A DNA stretch of 34,582 bases, taken from the NCBI GenBank assembly GCA_963205385.1, contig CAUJKE010000208.1, forward strand, positions 1 through 34,582, in the 5' to 3' direction. The notes under the pieces were generated by a model that was not told where the DNA came from, made no database searches, and was given only the letters and a program-made list of their open reading frames with translations. Position 1 is the first letter of the stretch. Each line of letters starts with the position of its first letter. Origin of the DNA: Planctomycetota bacterium (lineage in GTDB: Bacteria > Planctomycetota > Planctomycetia > Pirellulales > Pirellulaceae). Of this stretch, positions 4,277 through 17,486 are shown piece after piece. The position numbers and the translations under genes were made by a program.

Positions 4277-4694
4277 GCAAACCCTCCCTTGCAGGCGCTG
4301 GGCGCGGCAACAATCGCGCAAACCAACGGATTTCACTTAGTCCGATGGTAGCAGACCGCCTCGCAATTGCCAACTTCAGGCGAAATATTCACCGGGGGAA
4401 GTCGGTCCCGAAGGTCCGTTTTGGCAACGTCTCAACACGCCGCCTGGCCGTTGTCAAGCACCCTCGCGCCCTCGGCAAAGATCGTAATCTTTGCCACTAT
4501 TAACTGTCGCGGTTGAACTTTTTCTTCGAAACACGCTTGTCGCCATGCGCACTTTGGGATTAGGATAAATCTTGTTAACACGGCGCTAAGAAGTCTGAAC
4601 ATCTCCCACTGCGTGTTGGCGATGTGACGATCATCAGCGCCTGCCGCCTGCATGGAGCAGGGCTGGCGTTCGCTTCCTTTTCGAGGGCCCGGTG
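4277..4694. other. Divergent intergenic region
   Basis: About 420 bp between the HNH gene and the small Cys-pair gene. Besides the HNH promoter candidate, the plus strand has TTGTCG (4537) and TAGGAT (4561) with an 18-base spacer as a weak promoter candidate for the rightward gene. Nothing else was recognised. Confidence 0.35.
4345..4373 (-). promoter_or_regulatory. Candidate sigma-70 promoter of the HNH gene
   Basis: On the minus strand, TTGGCA (4373-4368) and TACCAT (4350-4345) are separated by exactly 17 bases. They match consensus at 5/6 and 4/6 positions. The predicted transcript starts about 60 bases upstream of the HNH ATG. Confidence 0.4.
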
Positions 4695-5003
4695 ATGATC
4701 CATTACTCGTGCGACCGTTGTAAGCGGTTGATCGATACGGAAGAAGAATTGCGATATTCAGTGAAGCTGGAAGTGTGCGCCGCCATGGAGCCGCTCGCCA
4801 GTGACGAGTTCGAGGATGATCGGGATCACCTCTTGGAAGTGCAGGAGATTCTTGAACGTCTGGATGACTTGGAAGACGACAACATCGGCGACGAAATCTA
4901 CCAAAAGAAGCATTACGATCTGTGCGCGTCATGCTATCGCGAGTTCATCAAGAACCCGCTCGGCCGCGAGCAACCGGTGCATCTCGGCTTCAGCCAGAAC
5001 TAA
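4695..5003 (+). CDS. Conserved small protein of unknown function with two CxxC pairs
   Basis: A protein of about 102 residues with no assigned function. Seen directly: CDRC near the N-terminus and CASC about 70 residues later, a spacing that could hold one zinc ion. Between them lies a strongly acidic, helix-prone stretch (roughly residues 38-68, rich in Asp, Glu and Leu) that could form a coiled coil. The start could be the GTG at 4692 or the ATG at 4695; GAGGG about eight bases upstream serves either. It is followed after 36 bp by the SNase-fold gene in the same direction, so the two may be cotranscribed. Coding potential is supported by the ordered Cys pairs and by codon use like its neighbours. 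Zinc binding is inference. Confidence 0.7.
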   Translation: MIHYSCDRCKRLIDTEEELRYSVKLEVCAAMEPLASDEFEDDRDHLLEVQEILERLDDLEDDNIGDEIYQKKHYDLCASCYREFIKNPLGREQPVHLGFSQN

Positions 5004-5039
5004 CCACCGATTCCCAATATCCTGACGTTAGGCGCACCG

Positions 5040-5588
5040 ATGCCTCGTCCCCGGCGTCGTATTCCCAGTTGGCGATTTTGGACGTGGGCGTGTTTGGCTT
5101 ATGTGGCGATCTTGCGCACGGTCGCCGCTTCGCCTGACACGGCGCCTGCGCACAACGGGGAACGTCGATTCGATGTCCCCAGTCTCCCACCCGGGCCATG
5201 CGAAGTCGTGGAAGTCATCAGCGGCGATACGTTCGTCGTGCGGCCGGCAACGAGTCATGTCAGCTTCGTCGTGCGTCTGTTGAGCACCCAGGCGGCCAGC
5301 GTGGAGCAGGACGGCCCCGAACTTGCCGCCGCCGCGACGCAGTCCGCGCGCGACTTTCTAACCCACGGCGACGTCCGCCTGCGGCTCGATAATCATCGGC
5401 TCGATAGTCACGGGCGTTATCTGGCGTATCTTGAAGCCCGCGGCGAGATGCTCAATCTCGCCTTGATCGAGGCCGGTCTCGCGAGGTTCTATTTTTTCCC
5501 CGGCAACTCCGCTTCGACGGATCGCCAATTGAGCAACGCGCAGGATGCCGCCCGCATCGCCCGCCGAGGAATTTGGCGAACCAGGTAA
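5040..5588 (+). CDS. Exported or membrane-anchored SNase-fold (thermonuclease-like) protein with a degenerate active site
   Basis: A 182-residue protein. An Arg-rich N-terminus and a hydrophobic stretch (about residues 11-30) suggest an export signal or membrane anchor. Residues about 54-180 match the staphylococcal nuclease fold: CEVVEVISGDTFVV (Asp63), VVRLL (Arg79), LDSHGRYLAYL (Arg126) and LNLALIEAGLARFYFF. The usual segment RLxxIDTPE, which supplies a metal-binding Asp and the general-base Glu, reads RLLSTQAAS here. The residues equivalent to Asp40 and Glu43 are therefore Gln84 and Ser87, while the two substrate Arg equivalents are kept. It may bind nucleic acid or phosphate without cleaving it, or have changed function. 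It sits 36 bp after the small CxxC protein gene. The fold assignment is good; loss of activity is inference. Confidence 0.8.
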   Translation: MPRPRRRIPSWRFWTWACLAYVAILRTVAASPDTAPAHNGERRFDVPSLPPGPCEVVEVISGDTFVVRPATSHVSFVVRLLSTQAASVEQDGPELAAAATQSARDFLTHGDVRLRLDNHRLDSHGRYLAYLEARGEMLNLALIEAGLARFYFFPGNSASTDRQLSNAQDAARIARRGIWRTR

Positions 5589-5713
5589 AAACCCGGTATC
5601 GCACGCACATTTCCCTGTACCGTCCGCCGGAATTGCAAACCATGCACTAGCCTGCTGCGATGGACCAACCACGGGACCACCGACTGCGGTATAAGCTTGC
5701 ATCGCGCACCAGC

Positions 5714-5748
5714 GGCGTTACATTGACGTTCTCACTCTCCGTAACGCC
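5714..5748. promoter_or_regulatory. Perfect inverted repeat in the leader of the isomerase gene
   Basis: GGCGTTAC - 19 bases - GTAACGCC, ending two bases before the GGAG ribosome-binding site at 5751. It could be an operator for a dimeric regulator or an mRNA stem controlling access to the start site. Confidence 0.5.
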
Positions 5749-5763
5749 TTGGAGCCCTGGTCG

Positions 5764-6585
5764 ATGAAACTCGGTTTGATCAATTCCGCCTGGGTGCAGG
5801 CCAATCAGCCTACCGTCTTTGGCCTCCAGAAGACGAAGGAACTCGGCTTCGACACGATCGACATCTTCGCCGATCCGCTCGACATTGACATCAAAGAGCG
5901 ACGGCTCATCAAGGATCAGTGCGATCGCCTAGAACTGCCCATCGTCTCCGTCGCCTGTGTGGCCGTGGGCTTGATCGACTTCAACCCAAGTTGCCAGCGG
6001 TTCCACTTGGAGCGGTGCAAAAAGTATCTCGACCTGGTGTACGAGTACGAAGCGAAAAACTTGCTGCTCGTGCTAGGCGAGTATATTTGGAACCAGGAAG
6101 TCATTCCGCCGGCGGAGCAATGGAACACGGCGATCCAAAATTGCCGCATCCTGGGGGATTACGCCGCGGATCTCGGTGTACAGATCGCGCTGGAACTCGA
6201 GCCGTTCCACCTCTCGCTGCTGAACAATGTCGACAACATGGTCCGGTTCATTGATGACTGCAACCATCCGGCGGTGAAAGCCAATATCGACATCTCCCAC
6301 CTCTGCCTGGCGAACGTCGCCCCGGAGGAAGTGCGGCGACTGCGCGGAAAGGCGATTCACGTCCATATCAGCGACTGCGACGGAAAAAAACATGGCGATT
6401 TGCCACCGGGGCGGGGCGTTGTCGATTTCGCCCCGTACTTGCAAGAAATCAAAGCACTCGGTATCGACGGGGCTGTTTCCATCGAACTCGAATACTCCCC
6501 CGAACCAGACAAGATCATCGACTGGGTCGCGGAAGCCTATCGCGAGACAGACAAGCTAATGCAGGCGGCGGGACTGCGGGATTAG
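5764..6585 (+). CDS. Sugar phosphate isomerase/epimerase (xylose isomerase-like TIM barrel)
   Basis: A 273-residue TIM-barrel protein of the AP_endonuc_2 superfamily. Putative metal ligands lie at the strand ends: Glu in ALELEPFHL, Asp/His in NIDISHLCL, His in HVHISDCDGKKHG, and Glu in SIELEYSPEP. Such enzymes isomerise or epimerise sugars, inositols or related polyols, usually with a divalent metal. The substrate cannot be told from sequence. The ATG at 5764 is chosen because GGAG at 5751 is properly spaced; an in-frame TTG at 5749 precedes it. No signal peptide is present, so it is cytoplasmic. It stands alone, with a perfect inverted repeat just before the ribosome-binding site that may regulate it. 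Confidence 0.88.
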   Translation: MKLGLINSAWVQANQPTVFGLQKTKELGFDTIDIFADPLDIDIKERRLIKDQCDRLELPIVSVACVAVGLIDFNPSCQRFHLERCKKYLDLVYEYEAKNLLLVLGEYIWNQEVIPPAEQWNTAIQNCRILGDYAADLGVQIALELEPFHLSLLNNVDNMVRFIDDCNHPAVKANIDISHLCLANVAPEEVRRLRGKAIHVHISDCDGKKHGDLPPGRGVVDFAPYLQEIKALGIDGAVSIELEYSPEPDKIIDWVAEAYRETDKLMQAAGLRD

Positions 6586-6762
6586 CGTCGGCAGGCCACC
6601 ACGAATTTTCACGCGCTCGTAAATTGCATTTGCCCCGCCCGCTACGAATGGGGACAATCAAAGGACGCCGCGACGGAACTTTGGTCATCGACGTGTGTTC
6701 CAAAGGAATCGCTCGTCACGCGCGCGTGCGCCGACATACTGCTTTTCTCAAGGAACACTTGC

Positions 6763-7425
6763 ATGTTTTCGAGTCGTTTGCAACTCACCCGCCGCACCTT
6801 TTGTGGCGGTCTCGCGTTCACCGCCGCCGCGCTCGCTACGCCGGGGTTGATGGCGGAAGAGCTGATCCGCACGCCGGCGCAAACTGAAGGGCCGTTTTAT
6901 CCCGACAAGCTGCCGCTCGATACCGACAACGATTTGATCATCGTCAACGATCAACTCACGTCCGCTGTGGGGGACATCACGCACTTAACGGGACGAATCC
7001 TCGATGCCCAGGGGAACCCCATTCGCAACGCCTTGGTCGAGATCTGGCAGGTAGACAACAACGCTGCGTACCTGCACACGCGGAGCGGCAATCGCGACAA
7101 ATACGACAGCAATTTCCAAGGCTTCGGCCGATTCCTGACGGGTTCCAGCGGCGGGTATTATTTCCGCACCATCAAGCCGGTTCCCTATCCCGGCCGCACG
7201 CCGCACATCCACGTCAAGGTAAAGCTCAAAGGTCGCCCGGAGTTCATCACGCAGTGCTACATCAAGGGCCATGCCGGCAACGAGCGTGATGGTATTTGGC
7301 GAAGCATCCGCGACGAGCAGCAACGCAACTCTGTCACCATCGACTTCGCGCCGCTGAAGAACTCCAAGTTAGGCGAATTGGCGGCGAATTTTGACGTCGT
7401 GCTCGGCTATACGCCGGAAGGTTAA
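6763..7425 (+). CDS. Exported intradiol ring-cleavage dioxygenase-like protein (Tat signal)
   Basis: A 220-residue protein of the protocatechuate 3,4-dioxygenase beta-sandwich family. The N-terminus LTRRTFCGGLAFTAAALA is a twin-arginine (Tat) signal, consistent with export of a cofactor-loaded enzyme. The non-haem Fe(III) site is visible: Tyr103 after EIWQVDNN, Tyr142 in PVPYPGR, then His148 and His150 in TPHIHVKV. Family members cleave catechol-type rings between the two hydroxyls; exported forms are often annotated only as intradiol dioxygenases of unknown substrate. The gene ends six bases before the gamma-glutamyltransferase ATG, so the two are almost certainly cotranscribed. Substrate unknown. 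Confidence 0.9.
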   Translation: MFSSRLQLTRRTFCGGLAFTAAALATPGLMAEELIRTPAQTEGPFYPDKLPLDTDNDLIIVNDQLTSAVGDITHLTGRILDAQGNPIRNALVEIWQVDNNAAYLHTRSGNRDKYDSNFQGFGRFLTGSSGGYYFRTIKPVPYPGRTPHIHVKVKLKGRPEFITQCYIKGHAGNERDGIWRSIRDEQQRNSVTIDFAPLKNSKLGELAANFDVVLGYTPEG

Positions 7426-7431
7426 GCCCTC

Positions 7432-9147
7432 ATGTTGGTTCCCAAACCGCTCGTCGCAGGCGCGATTGTCTTGTGGATCACGGCCAGCGCGCTGCCGCTG
7501 CCGGCGCAAGAGTCGGCGGTTGCTCCACGCGCTGGGCCAACGGCCATTTCGACGCGTGACATGGTTGTCAGCGTCTCGCGCCCGGCGAGCGAGATTGGCA
7601 GCCAAGTTCTGAACCAGGGGGGCAACGCCGTGGATGCGGCCGTCGCCACGGCGTTCGGCCTCGCGGTCGCCTGGCCGGAGGCTGGCAACATCGGCGGGGG
7701 CGGGTTCATGCTCATCGTCCGCGCCGGCGAAGAGCCGGTCTTTATCGACTATCGCGAAACCGCTCCCGCCGCCGCCACGCGCGAGATGTTCGCCGACGGC
7801 AAGCCCCCTTCCCAATACAAACTCGTTGGCGTGCCGGGAACCGTGCGGGGGCTCGCGCTGGCGCATGAAAAGTTCGGCCGTTTGCCGTGGGATAAACTCA
7901 TCGCCCCGGCGATCGCACTGGCCGAACACGGCGTCATCGTGAACGACGCCCTCGCCGGGTCGCTCAACGGCGCGCTCGCGAAATCGCCAGATTTTCCCGA
8001 ACTCCGCCGCGTCTACGCGCCGCCGGAGGGGCGCGACAAGTGGCAAGCCGGCGACAAGCTGGTGCAACCGCAACTCGCGGTCACCCTACGGCTCATCGCC
8101 ATCGAAGGTCCCGACGCCTTCTATCTGGGGCGAATCGCGGAGCAGATTGTTGTCGAGATGCAGCGCGGCGGTGGCTTGATTACCAAAGAAGATCTCGCTG
8201 GCTATCAGCCGCTTGAACGCCGGCCGATCCACGGCACATATCGAGGCTACGACATCTACGCGCCCTCGCCTCCCAGTTCCGGCGGCATTTGCCTCGTCGA
8301 AATGCTGAACATCGTCGAAGGCTTCGACCTGCGTAAACACCCGCGCTGGTCCAGCCGCACGGTGCATGTAATGACGGAAGCGATGAAACGCGCCTACGCC
8401 GATCGCGCGCGTTACCTCGGCGACTCCGACTTCGTTCGCATCCCGCCGCAGCTTACGACCAAAGAGTACGCTTCCGACCTGGCGAAGACCATTTCGCTAG
8501 CCAAGACAACGCCGAGCGAACAACTCGCGCCGGAAATCAAGCTCGCGAAAGAATCTGAGCAAACGACGCACTTCAGCGTCATCGACCGGGGCGGCATGGC
8601 CGTCTCGAACACCTACACGCTGGAACAATCCTTCGGCGCGAAGATCGTCGTGCGCGGCGCAGGCTTTCTGTTGAACAACGAGATGGGGGACTTCAACCCG
8701 CAGCCTGGGATTACCACGCGCGACGGGCAGATTGGCACCGCCGCTAATGAAGTCCGTCCTAAAAAGCGAATGCTGAGTTCCATGTGCCCCACGATCGTCT
8801 GCCGCGACGGCGAGCCGGTGCTCGTCACCGGCAGTCCCGGCGGGCGAACGATCATCAACACTGTCTTTAACGTGCTCGTCAATCGTTTGGAATACGAACA
8901 ACCACTGGAAGAAGCCGTCGATGGCCTGCGTCATCACCACCAGTGGTTTCCCGACCGGATCTCGCTCGAAGGCTCGCGCATCAAGCGGCATCCGAACTTA
9001 GTGCGGGAACTCGAAGCCCTCGGCCACACCGTAACCACCCGTTACGCGCGTCAAGGCGACGCTCACAGCATCGCCCGCGACCCGCGGACCAAACGACTCG
9101 AAGGGGTCGCCGATCCGCGGATTGATGGTTGGGCAGTGGGGAATTAA
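7432..9147 (+). CDS. ggt: Gamma-glutamyltransferase
   Basis: A 571-residue Ntn-hydrolase precursor of usual family length. A signal peptide (about residues 1-25, ending near LPAQ) indicates export. The autoprocessing site is intact: Thr378 in ESEQTTHFSVIDRGG would become the N-terminal nucleophile of the small subunit. Other signatures are GNAVDAAVATAFGLAV, NIGGGGFM, LNNEMGDF and GSPGGRTI. It hydrolyses glutathione and gamma-glutamyl conjugates or transfers the glutamyl group. It lies six bases after the dioxygenase gene. Together they suggest an exported pathway acting on aromatic or thiol-conjugated substrates, which is inference from proximity only. The stop is two bases from the HemP stop on the opposite strand. 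Confidence 0.95.
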   Translation: MLVPKPLVAGAIVLWITASALPLPAQESAVAPRAGPTAISTRDMVVSVSRPASEIGSQVLNQGGNAVDAAVATAFGLAVAWPEAGNIGGGGFMLIVRAGEEPVFIDYRETAPAAATREMFADGKPPSQYKLVGVPGTVRGLALAHEKFGRLPWDKLIAPAIALAEHGVIVNDALAGSLNGALAKSPDFPELRRVYAPPEGRDKWQAGDKLVQPQLAVTLRLIAIEGPDAFYLGRIAEQIVVEMQRGGGLITKEDLAGYQPLERRPIHGTYRGYDIYAPSPPSSGGICLVEMLNIVEGFDLRKHPRWSSRTVHVMTEAMKRAYADRARYLGDSDFVRIPPQLTTKEYASDLAKTISLAKTTPSEQLAPEIKLAKESEQTTHFSVIDRGGMAVSNTYTLEQSFGAKIVVRGAGFLLNNEMGDFNPQPGITTRDGQIGTAANEVRPKKRMLSSMCPTIVCRDGEPVLVTGSPGGRTIINTVFNVLVNRLEYEQPLEEAVDGLRHHHQWFPDRISLEGSRIKRHPNLVRELEALGHTVTTRYARQGDAHSIARDPRTKRLEGVADPRIDGWAVGN

Positions 9148-12264: not shown

Positions 12265-13752
12265 CTACGCCTTCACCGCCCAGTCGCGTCGTTGACGTGA
12301 ACTGGGAATGTTCATCTTTTGGCGATACTTGGTGATCGTGCGGCGGGCGACGTTGAGGCCTTGCTTGTGCAACTCCGCCACAAGCTCGTCGTCGCTGAAT
12401 GGCTTCGATTTGTTTTCGTTGTCGATCAATTCTTGCAGCTTGATGCGGATGATGTCCCAGGCGACTTCTTCCCCTTCTTCGCTCTTGGTGCCGCCGACAA
12501 AGAACCGCCTGAGCGGATAGAGTCCGCGGGGCGTTTGAATCCACTTGTCGTCCACCGCGCGACTGACCGTCGTGACATGCACGCCGACTTTCTCGGCAAT
12601 TTGCTGCATTTTCAGCGGTTCGATGCACTCCGGGCCTTCCTCCAAAAACCGCTTCTGATAATCGACGATCGCTTGCGAGACGCGCGTGAGCGTGCTCCGC
12701 CGCTGTTCGATGGCTTCGATGAGCCACTGCGCGGCGTTGATCTTGCGCTTGATGAACTCTTTCTCAGCGGCGGTCGCGGTGCCACTGGAGAGCCGCCGGC
12801 GATAGTATTCGCTGATGTGCAGCGTGGGCAGCCGCGTCTCCGGCAACACCACTTTGTAATTGCCTTCGTCGTCGCGCTCCAGGAGCACGTCCGGCGTCAC
12901 CACGTGCACAATCGTTTCCGCGAAATCGGCGGCCGGTTTGGGGTTCAACCGCCGCAATTGCTCCCAGGCATCCTTGATGCGCTGGATGGAAAAGCCGGTC
13001 GCCTTTTCGATCTGCGGCAGGCGATTATCGCGCAAGTCCTCGAGGTGATCAGTGATGATCGTCTTGACTTCCTCGTAGTAGGGGAAGTCCGGCGTCAACT
13101 GCAGTAGCAAACATTCCTTCAAATCGCGCGCCGCGATGCCTGGCGGATCGAGGTTTTGCACCACCGCTAATGCCTGCCTGGCGAGTTCCAATTGATCGGG
13201 GCCGGCATCGGCGGGGAGCATATCTTCCAGCGAGATGCGCAAGTAGCCGCCATCTTTGGGATCGAGCGTCGAGACGATCCGCTCGCACATGGCTAAGAGG
13301 TCAGCGTCGAGTTCGAGTTCGCCGAGTTGGTGCAACAAGTGATCGTGCAGCGACTCCGGCCGATCCACGATGTTCGCCATCGCATCGTGCTTGCGATCCG
13401 ATTCGTCCTCCATCCGCGACGCGGACTTGCGGATGGACTCCTCGTACGGTTCAGGCATGTCGTCGCCCATCTTGTCCAACCGCTCGAAATCATCGGCGTT
13501 GTTGTGGGCTTCATCGACTACCAGTTCCCGCTCGTCAACATCGCGCGTCGGTTCATCCGCCTGCACGCCGTCGTCGGGCGCTTGCGGATCCCCATCGACC
13601 GCTTCGAGCGTGGGATTATCGACAAGCGCTTGCTCGATGCGTTCTTGCAACAGCATTTGCGGCAGCTGCAGAATCTCCATCGATTGGATCATCCGCGGCG
13701 CCAACTTCAGCGTCTGGACTTGCTTGGCTTCAAGGCCGAGGTGCAGTCTCAT
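12265..13752 (-). CDS. rpoN: RNA polymerase sigma-54 factor RpoN
   Basis: A 495-residue sigma-54 with all expected regions. The N-terminal activator-interacting region I is Gln/Leu-rich (LGLEAKQVQTLKLAPRM, MEILQLPQMLLQERI). An acidic region II covers about residues 48-115. The core-binding domain follows. The helix-turn-helix lies near MQQIAEKVGVHVTTVSRAVD. The RpoN box reads ARRTITKYRQKM near the C-terminus and recognises the -24 promoter element. RpoN needs AAA+ enhancer-binding activators for open-complex formation; none is encoded in this window. It is downstream of recR on the same strand with a 126-bp gap that contains a hairpin, so it probably has its own promoter. Confidence 0.97.
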   Translation of the reverse strand: MRLHLGLEAKQVQTLKLAPRMIQSMEILQLPQMLLQERIEQALVDNPTLEAVDGDPQAPDDGVQADEPTRDVDERELVVDEAHNNADDFERLDKMGDDMPEPYEESIRKSASRMEDESDRKHDAMANIVDRPESLHDHLLHQLGELELDADLLAMCERIVSTLDPKDGGYLRISLEDMLPADAGPDQLELARQALAVVQNLDPPGIAARDLKECLLLQLTPDFPYYEEVKTIITDHLEDLRDNRLPQIEKATGFSIQRIKDAWEQLRRLNPKPAADFAETIVHVVTPDVLLERDDEGNYKVVLPETRLPTLHISEYYRRRLSSGTATAAEKEFIKRKINAAQWLIEAIEQRRSTLTRVSQAIVDYQKRFLEEGPECIEPLKMQQIAEKVGVHVTTVSRAVDDKWIQTPRGLYPLRRFFVGGTKSEEGEEVAWDIIRIKLQELIDNENKSKPFSDDELVAELHKQGLNVARRTITKYRQKMNIPSSRQRRDWAVKA

Positions 13753-13878: not shown

Positions 13879-14478
13879 CTACAACTTCTGTCTGCCGGTG
13901 ATTGCATCCGCCAGAATCTCTTTGTTGGTGTATTCCAGCACGCTGCCGGTCGTGATGCCCCGCGCCAGCCGCGTAATCGTTACGGGCAGTTCTGCTAACT
14001 GGTTCGAGATAAACAACGACGTCCCATCGCCTTCAACGGTGGGGTTGGTCGCCATGATGAGCTCGCGAAAATTTCCGTTCCGCACCCGTTCGACTAAAGC
14101 TTCAATCGTGAGTTGGTCGGGGCCGATGCCATCCAGCGGCGCGATCCGCCCGAGCAACACGTGATACATCCCTGCATACATGCCAGACTGTTCAAGGGCC
14201 ATCAAGTCGCGCGGTTGCTCGACAACACACAATAGCGTGCGATCGCGCTTGGGATCGCGGCAGATGGCGCATTCTTCCCCTTCGGCCAGGTTGAAACAGG
14301 TCTTACAATAGTGCACATTCTCGCGCACGTCGCGAATGGCGTCTGCCAGCGCGAGGGCTTCCGACTTGTGCACGCGCAGAATGTGGTACGCGAGCCGCTC
14401 GGCGGACTTGCGCCCAATGCCGGGGAGCTTCGCGAACTCATCAACCATGCGCGTCACGGAGTCGGCGACTTGGGTCAT
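13879..14478 (-). CDS. recR: Recombination protein RecR
   Basis: A 199-residue RecR of standard length. Present in order: an N-terminal helix-hairpin-helix (FAKLPGIGRKSAERLAYHIL), the C4 zinc finger (CKTCFNLAEGEECAIC), the Toprim domain (LLCVVEQPRDLMALEQ, then IMATNPTVEGDGTSLFI) and the C-terminal ITRLARGITTGSVLEYTNKE. RecR works with RecO/RecF to load RecA at single-stranded gaps. The start codon overlaps the ybaB stop by four bases (14475-14478), indicating translational coupling. It is the last gene of the classic dnaX-ybaB-recR operon. Confidence 0.98.
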   Translation of the reverse strand: MTQVADSVTRMVDEFAKLPGIGRKSAERLAYHILRVHKSEALALADAIRDVRENVHYCKTCFNLAEGEECAICRDPKRDRTLLCVVEQPRDLMALEQSGMYAGMYHVLLGRIAPLDGIGPDQLTIEALVERVRNGNFRELIMATNPTVEGDGTSLFISNQLAELPVTITRLARGITTGSVLEYTNKEILADAITGRQKL

Positions 14479-14831
14479 GTCCCGTTCCCCGTGAATTGTG
14501 CAAGCGCATCTTGCAAGCCGGGAACATCCATCCCTTCGGTCAGCGACTGCATCGCCGCGACGTGCAACTCCTTGGCCTTCTGCAGCGCTTGATTGATCGC
14601 GGCGGCGGTCAAGTCCTCGATCATCTCGGTCTCGCCGCGCGCGACCAGCTCTGGATCGATCTTCACGCGGACCACTTCGCTGAGGCCGTTGATTTCCACT
14701 ACGACCATCTCGCCCCCGGCCGAGCCTGTCGCGCGCTCGTGCTTGAGGCGCTCGTTCACCGCTTGCATCTTCTCGCCCATCTGCTGGGCAGAACGCATGA
14801 GCGTTCCAATATTCGCTAACGCTTTGAACAC
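14475..14831 (-). CDS. ybaB: YbaB/EbfC family nucleoid-associated protein
   Basis: A 118-residue YbaB/EbfC protein. The N-terminus LANIGTLMRSAQQMGEKMQAV forms the first helix of the tweezer-like dimer, followed by the strand GEMVVVEINGLSEVVRVKIDPEL and a C-terminal helix with AAAINQALQKAKEL. Family members bind DNA as dimers and coat the nucleoid. Location between dnaX and recR, with a four-base overlap into recR, is the canonical order. The C-terminus is slightly extended (VPGLQDALAQFTGNGT). Its start lies about 60 bp after the dnaX stop. Confidence 0.95.
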   Translation of the reverse strand: MFKALANIGTLMRSAQQMGEKMQAVNERLKHERATGSAGGEMVVVEINGLSEVVRVKIDPELVARGETEMIEDLTAAAINQALQKAKELHVAAMQSLTEGMDVPGLQDALAQFTGNGT

Positions 14832-14891: not shown

Positions 14892-16652
14892 TTACTTCGG
14901 GCGGGGCGGTTCCGCGTTGACCACTTCGGCCCCAAACGCCTCCATCGTCTGCTGGACGAGCGGATGGCGTTCGAGTTCCTTCATCAACAGGCGTTTGTTG
15001 GGGGCAGGCGTCGGCCGTTCGGTCGGCCTGGCTTTCCCCGGCAGGAGTTCAAAATCGACCCGGATGATTTCGCCCGTCAAATCGCTGAGGGCTTTCTCAA
15101 ATCGGGACCGGCTGTTCGGCCGCTCGCAGAACTCCTTGTGGGTAATATACTCCGCAGGAAAGGAAGCAACCAGTCGATTTGGCCCAGAACTTGCTACTTG
15201 AGCGGCCAGGCGGCCCATGTCGGCCACCATATCTCCCATATTATCAAGGACTTGCTGCCAAATCTCGGTTGCGTTGGCCGGGGTCAAAATGCCCTCAGAA
15301 GATGCCGCTCGAGGCGGCTGAGCCGGCTCATTCAACGGCTCAGCGGTTATGTGTTCCGTTTTTTTTTGAACCGTAGCAGGCCCCGGCGCCGCCGGGCCGC
15401 GCGCAGTGCCCGGAGCCGCGGGCGCAGGCGAATTAGGACGAGTTGCCGGCCCGCCTGCGTGAGAACCCGCCGCCGGAACCGCACCCCCCCGCAGACTAGC
15501 AAGCACGCTTGCCAGTTCATCCAGCGCTTCGAGTTGGCAGATCCGCACAACGGCCACTTCGAGCAGCACGCGGGGGTGCATGCTCGTCTTCATCCGCACC
15601 AAGGCATGATCGACAATCTGGAGCATGGCCAGCAGCGTTTCCGCGCCGAGCTTGCGCCCATTCTCGACCAGCAGCGCGTATTCATCAGCGGCGCTGTGCA
15701 GCATGAGGTCCGGCGAGCCGCCTACGGTCGCGGTCAGCATGTCGCGCAAGTAGCCGAGCAACTGTTCGGCCAACTGCCCGACATCGACCCCTTCCCGCGT
15801 CGCGGTGTCGATAGACGCCAGCGCCGTCGCCGCGTCGCGGTTCGCCAACTGCTCCATCAGCTCCGCCAAGCGCGCTCCGCGGGCCGTGCCCAGCATGCGA
15901 TGCACTTCTTCCACGGTGATCTCTTGTTCGCACACGCTGAGCAGTTGCTCAAGCAGCGACTGGCTATCGCGCATCGAGCCGGCCGCGCGCCGCGCGAGCA
16001 GCTTGAGCGCCTCCGGCTCCGCGGTCAGACCTTCGTTCTTGGCGATCTCGCTCAGCCGCTTTTGAATCGCATCGGTGGCGACCGGCGCAAAGTCAAACCG
16101 CTGGCAGCGCGAGAGAACCGTGATCGGCAGTTTCTCGGGATTGGTCGTGCAGAACACGAACTTCACATGCTCCGGCGGCTCCTCCAACGTCTTCAGCAGC
16201 GCGTTGAAGGATTCGGTTGTCAGCATGTGGACTTCGTCGATGATGTAAATCTTGAAGCGCGAGCGGCTCGGCCGGATCGCCACGTTCGCCCGCAGTTGGC
16301 GAATGTCATCGATGCCGCGGTTGCTGGCGCCGTCGATCTCGATGACATCGACATCGCCGCCGCCGGTGATGCTCACGCAGGACTCGCACTTGTTGCATGG
16401 CGACGGCGTGGGGCCTTGTTCGCAATTCAGCGCCTTGGCGAAAATCCGCGCCGTGGAAGTCTTGCCGGTTCCCCGCGCGCCGGTGAATAGATAAGCGTGG
16501 CCCACGCGCTCCGTCGTGATTGCCGTGGAGAGCCCGTGCGCGACATGCGGCTGGCCCACCAATTCGTCAAACAATTGCGGCCGATACTTGCGGGCAACGA
16601 CTTGATAAGAGCCTGCTTCGCGGCGGGCTTGGGGCGGGGACTCGTTCGGCAT
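14892..16652 (-). CDS. dnaX: DNA polymerase III subunits tau/gamma, with a probable programmed slippage site
   Basis: A 586-residue clamp-loader ATPase. Numbering from the start at 16652, features are Walker A GARGTGKTSTA (about 58-68), four zinc cysteines in CEQGPTPSPCNKCESC, Walker B IIDEVH (about 138) and the SRC arginine-finger motif at about 181-183. Domain III ends near residue 390, then a Pro/Ala-rich linker and the tau-specific C-terminal region. The linker codons CAA AAA AAA ACG (Q429 onwards) form a nine-A run. A one-base deletion would give a 434-residue product and a one-base insertion 437 residues, close to E. coli gamma (431). A perfect stem-loop follows. The ATG at 16652 has GAGGAG upstream; longer in-frame starts run into the SRP RNA gene. 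First gene of dnaX-ybaB-recR. Confidence 0.97.
   Translation of the reverse strand: MPNESPPQARREAGSYQVVARKYRPQLFDELVGQPHVAHGLSTAITTERVGHAYLFTGARGTGKTSTARIFAKALNCEQGPTPSPCNKCESCVSITGGGDVDVIEIDGASNRGIDDIRQLRANVAIRPSRSRFKIYIIDEVHMLTTESFNALLKTLEEPPEHVKFVFCTTNPEKLPITVLSRCQRFDFAPVATDAIQKRLSEIAKNEGLTAEPEALKLLARRAAGSMRDSQSLLEQLLSVCEQEITVEEVHRMLGTARGARLAELMEQLANRDAATALASIDTATREGVDVGQLAEQLLGYLRDMLTATVGGSPDLMLHSAADEYALLVENGRKLGAETLLAMLQIVDHALVRMKTSMHPRVLLEVAVVRICQLEALDELASVLASLRGGAVPAAGSHAGGPATRPNSPAPAAPGTARGPAAPGPATVQKKTEHITAEPLNEPAQPPRAASSEGILTPANATEIWQQVLDNMGDMVADMGRLAAQVASSGPNRLVASFPAEYITHKEFCERPNSRSRFEKALSDLTGEIIRVDFELLPGKARPTERPTPAPNKRLLMKELERHPLVQQTMEAFGAEVVNAEPPRPK
15317..15367 (-). promoter_or_regulatory. 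A9 slippery run plus stem-loop inside dnaX
   Basis: On the minus strand the nine A's (15367-15359) are followed by 14 bases and then GCTGAGCCG - 10-base loop - CGGCTCAGC (15344-15317), a perfect 9-bp stem. After the run, one alternative frame reads CGG AAC ACA TAA and the other AAC GGA ACA CAT AAC CGC TGA. Thermus thermophilus dnaX uses nine A's for transcriptional slippage; E. coli uses AAAAAAG with a downstream hairpin for -1 ribosomal frameshifting. This site combines features of both. Confidence 0.75.
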
Positions 16653-17051: not shown

Positions 17052-17486
17052 ATGCTCAAACGCGAAGAAATGCTCTGCTTCAGTCTCGGCGTTGCGATGC
17101 GGCGGATCAGCAAGATCTATGCCGACGCGCTGGCCGGGCATGAGATCACGCCGCCGCAGCTTTTTCTGTTGAGTTGCCTGGAAGCGGCAGATGGGCAAAA
17201 GCCGCGCGACCTGGCCGAGCAGGTTTGTCTTGACGCTAGTTCGCTGACCGGCTTGCTCGACCGGACCGAAAAGGCCGGGCTGATCGAGCGTCGCCCCGAT
17301 CCCGAGGATCGCCGCGCGTTGCGCATCCATCTTACCGAGCAGGGCCACAAGAGCCTTAGCGGACTCCATCCCGTGGTGGAAGAAGTGCACGCCCGCATCG
17401 AGCGCGAGTTCTTCGCGGACTACTCACCTCAAGAGCGCGAACTATTCAAGCAAATGTTGACGCGGATGCGCGAGGTCACGGGCTAA
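17052..17486 (+). CDS. MarR-family transcriptional regulator
   Basis: A 144-residue winged-helix regulator of typical MarR length. Helices at residues 1-30 form part of the dimer interface. The DNA-binding domain covers about residues 33-98, with recognition helix DASSLTGLLDRTEKAGLIER and the wing RRPDPEDRRALRIHLTEQG, whose D-x-R-D/A-R pattern is characteristic. C-terminal helices complete the dimer. MarR proteins usually repress nearby genes and release DNA on binding phenolic or oxidising ligands. The DinB-like gene follows 75 bp downstream on the same strand and is a possible target or operon partner. An upstream imperfect inverted pair TTAGC/GCTAA (16995-17022) could be an operator but is weak. 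Confidence 0.93.
   Translation: MLKREEMLCFSLGVAMRRISKIYADALAGHEITPPQLFLLSCLEAADGQKPRDLAEQVCLDASSLTGLLDRTEKAGLIERRPDPEDRRALRIHLTEQGHKSLSGLHPVVEEVHARIEREFFADYSPQERELFKQMLTRMREVTG

Follow-up and report, generated by a model that had tools for sequence, protein, structure and literature searches.

The question raised by this locus is whether a run of nine A's inside the dnaX gene of a planctomycete lets one gene yield two forms of the clamp-loader protein, the long tau and a short gamma-like product, and whether this would be the work of the RNA polymerase or of the ribosome. The gene, which encodes the gamma and tau subunits of DNA polymerase III, lies at 14892..16652 on the minus strand of the window, by which we mean the whole stretch of 34,582 nucleotides that was analysed. 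It begins with an ATG and its template frame is a tau of 586 aa. TIGR02397 and NF004046 both matched the product above their cut-offs, and the Pfam matches were PF13177 (residues 34-191), PF22608 (196-242) and PF12169 (245-377). The features of clamp-loader membership, which are the AAA+ core, the lid and domain III, are present up to residue 377, and they are followed by a linker (around 378-470) and by the tau-specific C-terminus (around 470-586). This dnaX is a normal clamp-loader subunit gene. Regarding its surroundings, genes for a sigma-54 factor (rpoN), recR and ybaB lie directly downstream on the same strand (window positions 12265-13752 and 13879-14831), and a MarR-type regulator lies upstream (17052-17486).

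The run occupies 15359..15367 of the minus strand (T9 on the plus strand), in codons 429-432 (CAA AAA AAA ACG) and in codon phase 1, 52 residues past the end of domain III. After a spacer of 14 nt (15358-15345) there is a perfect inverted repeat of 9 bp at 15317..15344 of the same strand, with arms at 15344-15336 and 15325-15317 and a loop of 10 nt at 15335-15326. The first-pass annotation had described this same arrangement, with the run in the linker after domain III, and had predicted short products of 434 and 437 residues against 586 because both shifted frames stop soon; the coordinates agree exactly and our own computation returned the same lengths. An mRNA with 8, 11 or 14 A's would meet a TAA at 15347..15349 (minus strand) and give a product of 434-436 aa, and one with 7, 10 or 13 A's would meet a TGA at 15340..15342 (minus strand) and give 436-438 aa. 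By number of A's, the computed products are 586 aa for 9, 434 for 8, 437 for 10, 435 for 11 and 587 for 12. The short form, of a predicted 45-47 kDa, would finish with a tail read in a shifted frame (...QKKNGTHNR or ...QKKRNT). The sequence features of the Thermus type, namely an uninterrupted A9, a template frame that encodes tau and a nearby stop in each of the two other frames, were found here. The run also contains an A_AAA_AAA heptamer in frame.

We consider it probable, with a probability of roughly 0.8, that this gene carries a programmed transcriptional slippage site of the type known from Thermus thermophilus dnaX. On the nine T's of the template the RNA polymerase would re-align its growing transcript and so produce mRNAs with varying numbers of A's. 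Those with 9, 12 and so on would be translated into the full-length tau of 586-587 aa, and those with other counts would reach a stop, TAA or TGA, some 2-6 codons on and yield a presumably used gamma-like form with a computed length of 434-438 aa. This form would retain the AAA+ core and domain III and would lack the tau-specific C-terminus.

The window contains one A9 where shuffles give 0.22 on average, and 15% of the shuffles contain one, therefore the run is only suggestive when the window is taken by itself. In the whole genome (6.03 Mb in 417 contigs, both strands) a pattern search found just two A9/T9 runs. The other one is a T9 at G000:C305:1047-1055 (L005), inside a 473-codon open frame for a putative membrane protein. 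In the genomes of 25 relatives the A9 density was around 1e-6 per strand-base, therefore around 3e-4 A9 runs are expected per linker of 300 nt, and at most 2.5e-3. Chance is ruled out because the run is kept in around 200 relatives, so that the earlier remark that it was unlikely to be accidental is borne out both by the two runs in this genome and by conservation.

In order to measure this conservation, dnaX genes were gathered at four levels, those of family, order, class and phylum, and were counted only where the linker was readable. A run of A9-A11 was present in the DnaX linker in 116/126 genes of the family Pirellulaceae, including those of Aporhodopirellula aestuarii (L011) and L233, which carry the same site, in 59/67 from elsewhere in the order Pirellulales, in 28/37 from elsewhere in the class Planctomycetia and in 1/43 of the remaining genes of the phylum. 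The run is thus conserved in related planctomycetes of the family, the order and the class. Among the 203 class genes the run was A9 in 102, A10 in 99 and A11 in 2, and none of the dnaX genes of the family had a run of A7 or A8. Three genes have tandem A9 runs a few bases apart at the site (L276 and L277 at around residues 426-433 and L168 at around 433-439), which perhaps raise slippage. A sampling of bacteria beyond the Planctomycetota showed scattered A9-A10 runs in a few Bacteroidota, Ignavibacteria, Desulfobacteraceae and Opitutaceae. In L071 (Opitutaceae), L033, L066, L083 and L082 they lie at the same boundary of DnaX; in L071 gamma is in the template frame and the shifted frame is open.

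The run was found in codon phases 0, 1 and 2, and the DnaX tree requires 28 phase changes or more, a count that is rough because this FastTree tree was built with the linker left out and has many weak branches. In every phase the minimum was 9 nt and the length 9 or 10, apart from the two runs of 11. Furthermore, 220 kb of conserved N-terminal coding DNA of the same dnaX genes contained no run of A8 or T8 or longer. In this N-terminal part 60% of the lysine codons are AAG, yet the run is free of G in the 203 genes. The first-pass annotation had named synonymous G's breaking the run in relatives as the observation to be looked for against slippage, and this result favours slippage instead. All these data, namely the use of all codon phases, the commonness of AAG elsewhere and the lack of A8/T8 runs in the N-terminal DNA, point to selection for the nucleotides of the run rather than for lysines; selection for lysines was rejected by the phase changes and by the lack of AAG in the run.

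In 80% of the genes a stop follows within 10 codons in each of the two shifted frames, against 6.6% at control codon positions, and the signal of paired stops peaks sharply exactly at the A-run. Taken by frame, the stop is there in 93% of the genes for an inserted A (25% in controls) and in 86% for a deleted A (27% in controls). The comparison of these genes thus shows that at least nine A's, in any codon phase, together with stops in both shifted frames, are kept by selection across most of the class. Slippage by the RNA polymerase is favoured because it predicts both the stops in the two frames and a minimum of 9 nt that does not depend on the codon phase. The genome also has separate tRNA-Lys genes for AAA (anticodon UUU) and AAG (anticodon CUU), a situation in which a review sees a link to the polymerase slippage of Thermus. 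As a separate observation on its tRNA genes, a dense array of at least 26 of them on one strand occupies around 3 kb at G000:C119 ~4500-7500 (L427, L431, L433) and resembles the arrays of tRNA genes in phages or mobile elements, and ordinary scattered tRNA genes are also present.

The first-pass annotation had also pointed to the hairpin, and a role for it is the part of the earlier proposal that is not supported, while slippage at the A9 giving a gamma-like form is strongly supported by the comparative evidence. The stem is real in this gene, although its folding against shuffles was weak (z of -1.6 for 80 nt and -3.6 for the window of 6-56 nt). In around 200 genes the downstream folding was not enriched, with a mean z of -0.31 against -0.31 and -0.26 in control windows 90 and 150 nt further, and the upstream window folded like its controls. 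Exact stems of at least 7 bp were found at the site in 3/202 genes, against 3-9 in controls. Shine-Dalgarno-like motifs upstream of the run were found in 5/203 genes (2.5%), against 2-13 of around 203 (1-6%) in controls, and none was found in the 30 nt upstream of the run of this gene. Thus, we rejected the hairpin as a shared stimulator on folding, control windows and stem counts, and likewise an upstream stem or a Shine-Dalgarno-like stimulator, which showed no enrichment. The stem in this dnaX is probably incidental or lineage-specific, to judge from the relatives; it may have a local effect, but it lies outside the conserved signal and probably outside the mechanism.

These negative results weigh mainly on the best of the alternatives, which is -1 programmed ribosomal frameshifting on A_AAA_AAA, with the stem that follows as its stimulator. 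In E. coli dnaX this mechanism uses A_AAA_AAG, a Shine-Dalgarno-like element and a stem-loop. The gene is the same and so is the predicted outcome, a short gamma beside tau, and in the gene studied here the in-frame heptamer and the 9-bp stem 14 nt downstream would fit such a signal, although this spacer is long for frameshift signals of the E. coli type. However, a signal of this type is not supported, because stems, folding and Shine-Dalgarno-like motifs equal the controls in around 200 genes, and what the relatives conserve in the run is not A_AAA_AAG. Furthermore, the heptamer would need from 7 to 9 A's depending on the phase, whereas the observed minimum is 9 in every phase, and the stops in the deleted-A frame (86% against 27%) would be superfluous for a -1 shift; unlike in E. 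coli, the stops are in both frames and not in one. We therefore regard -1 frameshifting as improbable as the explanation of the site, although some ribosomal shifting may occur at the run because it holds the in-frame A_AAA_AAA.

Somewhat less probable still is that ribosomes slide on the poly-A independently of any hairpin and thus yield out-of-frame products. Sliding ribosomes exit poly-A in several frames (PMC4363877), and this too would favour a stop in each shifted frame. Nevertheless, E. coli extracts showed robust sliding on A11 and little on A9 or A10 (PMC4363877), and the clade retains 9-10 A's and almost never 11. Finally, it is very improbable that there is no recoding at all and that the A's are explained by a lysine-rich element of the linker, by an accident of mutation or by phase variation: the DnaX linker does vary in sequence and length and poly-A runs mutate easily, but it is the nucleotides and not the residues that are conserved, in all phases, without AAG and class-wide, the stops peak at the run, and a tract for phase variation has no need of stops in both frames and would be odd in a clamp-loader gene.

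Slippage by the RNA polymerase is thus the reading that we keep, although the genes of the class that lack the run count against it. A run of at least nine A's is absent in 27 class genes (L103, L104, L149, L150, L153, L154, L158, L200, L213, L234 and others), and no replacement slippery site was evident in the 26 genes with fewer than 8 A's that were inspected. These genes fall in several lineages, and presence and absence need at least 18 changes on the same rough tree. Therefore, the need for a short form is not universal, since these 27 genes lack the run and the 26 inspected show no evident substitute. In four other genes (L180, L185, L222 and L228) the template frame meets a stop right behind the run, and tau is open only in a shifted frame. 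In these four, tau would need slippage; the arrangement could be real or could come from homopolymer assembly errors. For the class as a whole, there is about an even chance that slippage in dnaX is an ancestral trait of Planctomycetia, kept through run length and paired stops alone, with frames that flip between tau and gamma and with some lineages that have lost the short form. Under this proposal single-A changes, which turn tau-in-frame into gamma-in-frame or the reverse, would be tolerated because slippage supplies both frames.

The kind of mechanism is already known. In Thermus thermophilus dnaX transcriptional slippage takes place on an A9 with stops in both non-zero frames (Larsen et al. 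2000, as described in PMC1088944 and PMC5009743). According to these two accounts, the likeness extends to the A9 on the sense strand, to a tau in one open frame and to near stops in both others; what they say of the Thermus site mentions no stimulator, and likewise we found no conserved one in planctomycetes. The differences are that the planctomycetes are a far-off phylum, that both lengths 9 and 10 occur in them and that the site is common to most of the class. The run lies seven-eighths through the gene in Thermus as described there, and at codon 429 of 586 (73%) here. Among these cases slippage is proven for Thermus only, and in planctomycetes we infer it from the sequences. GeneTack found dnaX genes with two ORFs and 7-10 A's, for which slippage was proposed, and the main text of that work names Chlorobi for three cases and no planctomycete (PMC3711429). 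Poly-A at the gamma/tau boundary is shared with those genes, and the four exceptions with gamma in the template frame share their arrangement, whereas most planctomycete genes have tau in the template frame. In our searches, which covered open-access texts without supplements, no paper joined dnaX slippage with planctomycetes, and the sole text matching dnaX, slippage and planctomycetes had the latter only in a table of genome counts. Because of this scope we call the finding apparently unreported, and what is apparently new is how widely the site is distributed in the clade, together with the evidence of selection that comes from comparing the genes.

According to a survey of 2005 (PMC1088944), slippage is hard to assess from the comparison of sequences when its effect is to truncate a protein. 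The around 200 genes gathered here supply such comparative evidence, with the run and the paired stops under selection class-wide and with natural losses for comparison. It has hitherto been hard to judge how important a short DnaX is in bacteria other than E. coli, Thermus and Caulobacter, and the lineages without the run offer a natural comparison for the need of it; several of the members that bear the run are culturable isolates, and cultured examples are Aporhodopirellula aestuarii with an A10 and Gemmata sp. IIL30 with an A9. Furthermore, dnaX genes that are annotated as broken at the A-run may actually be functional.
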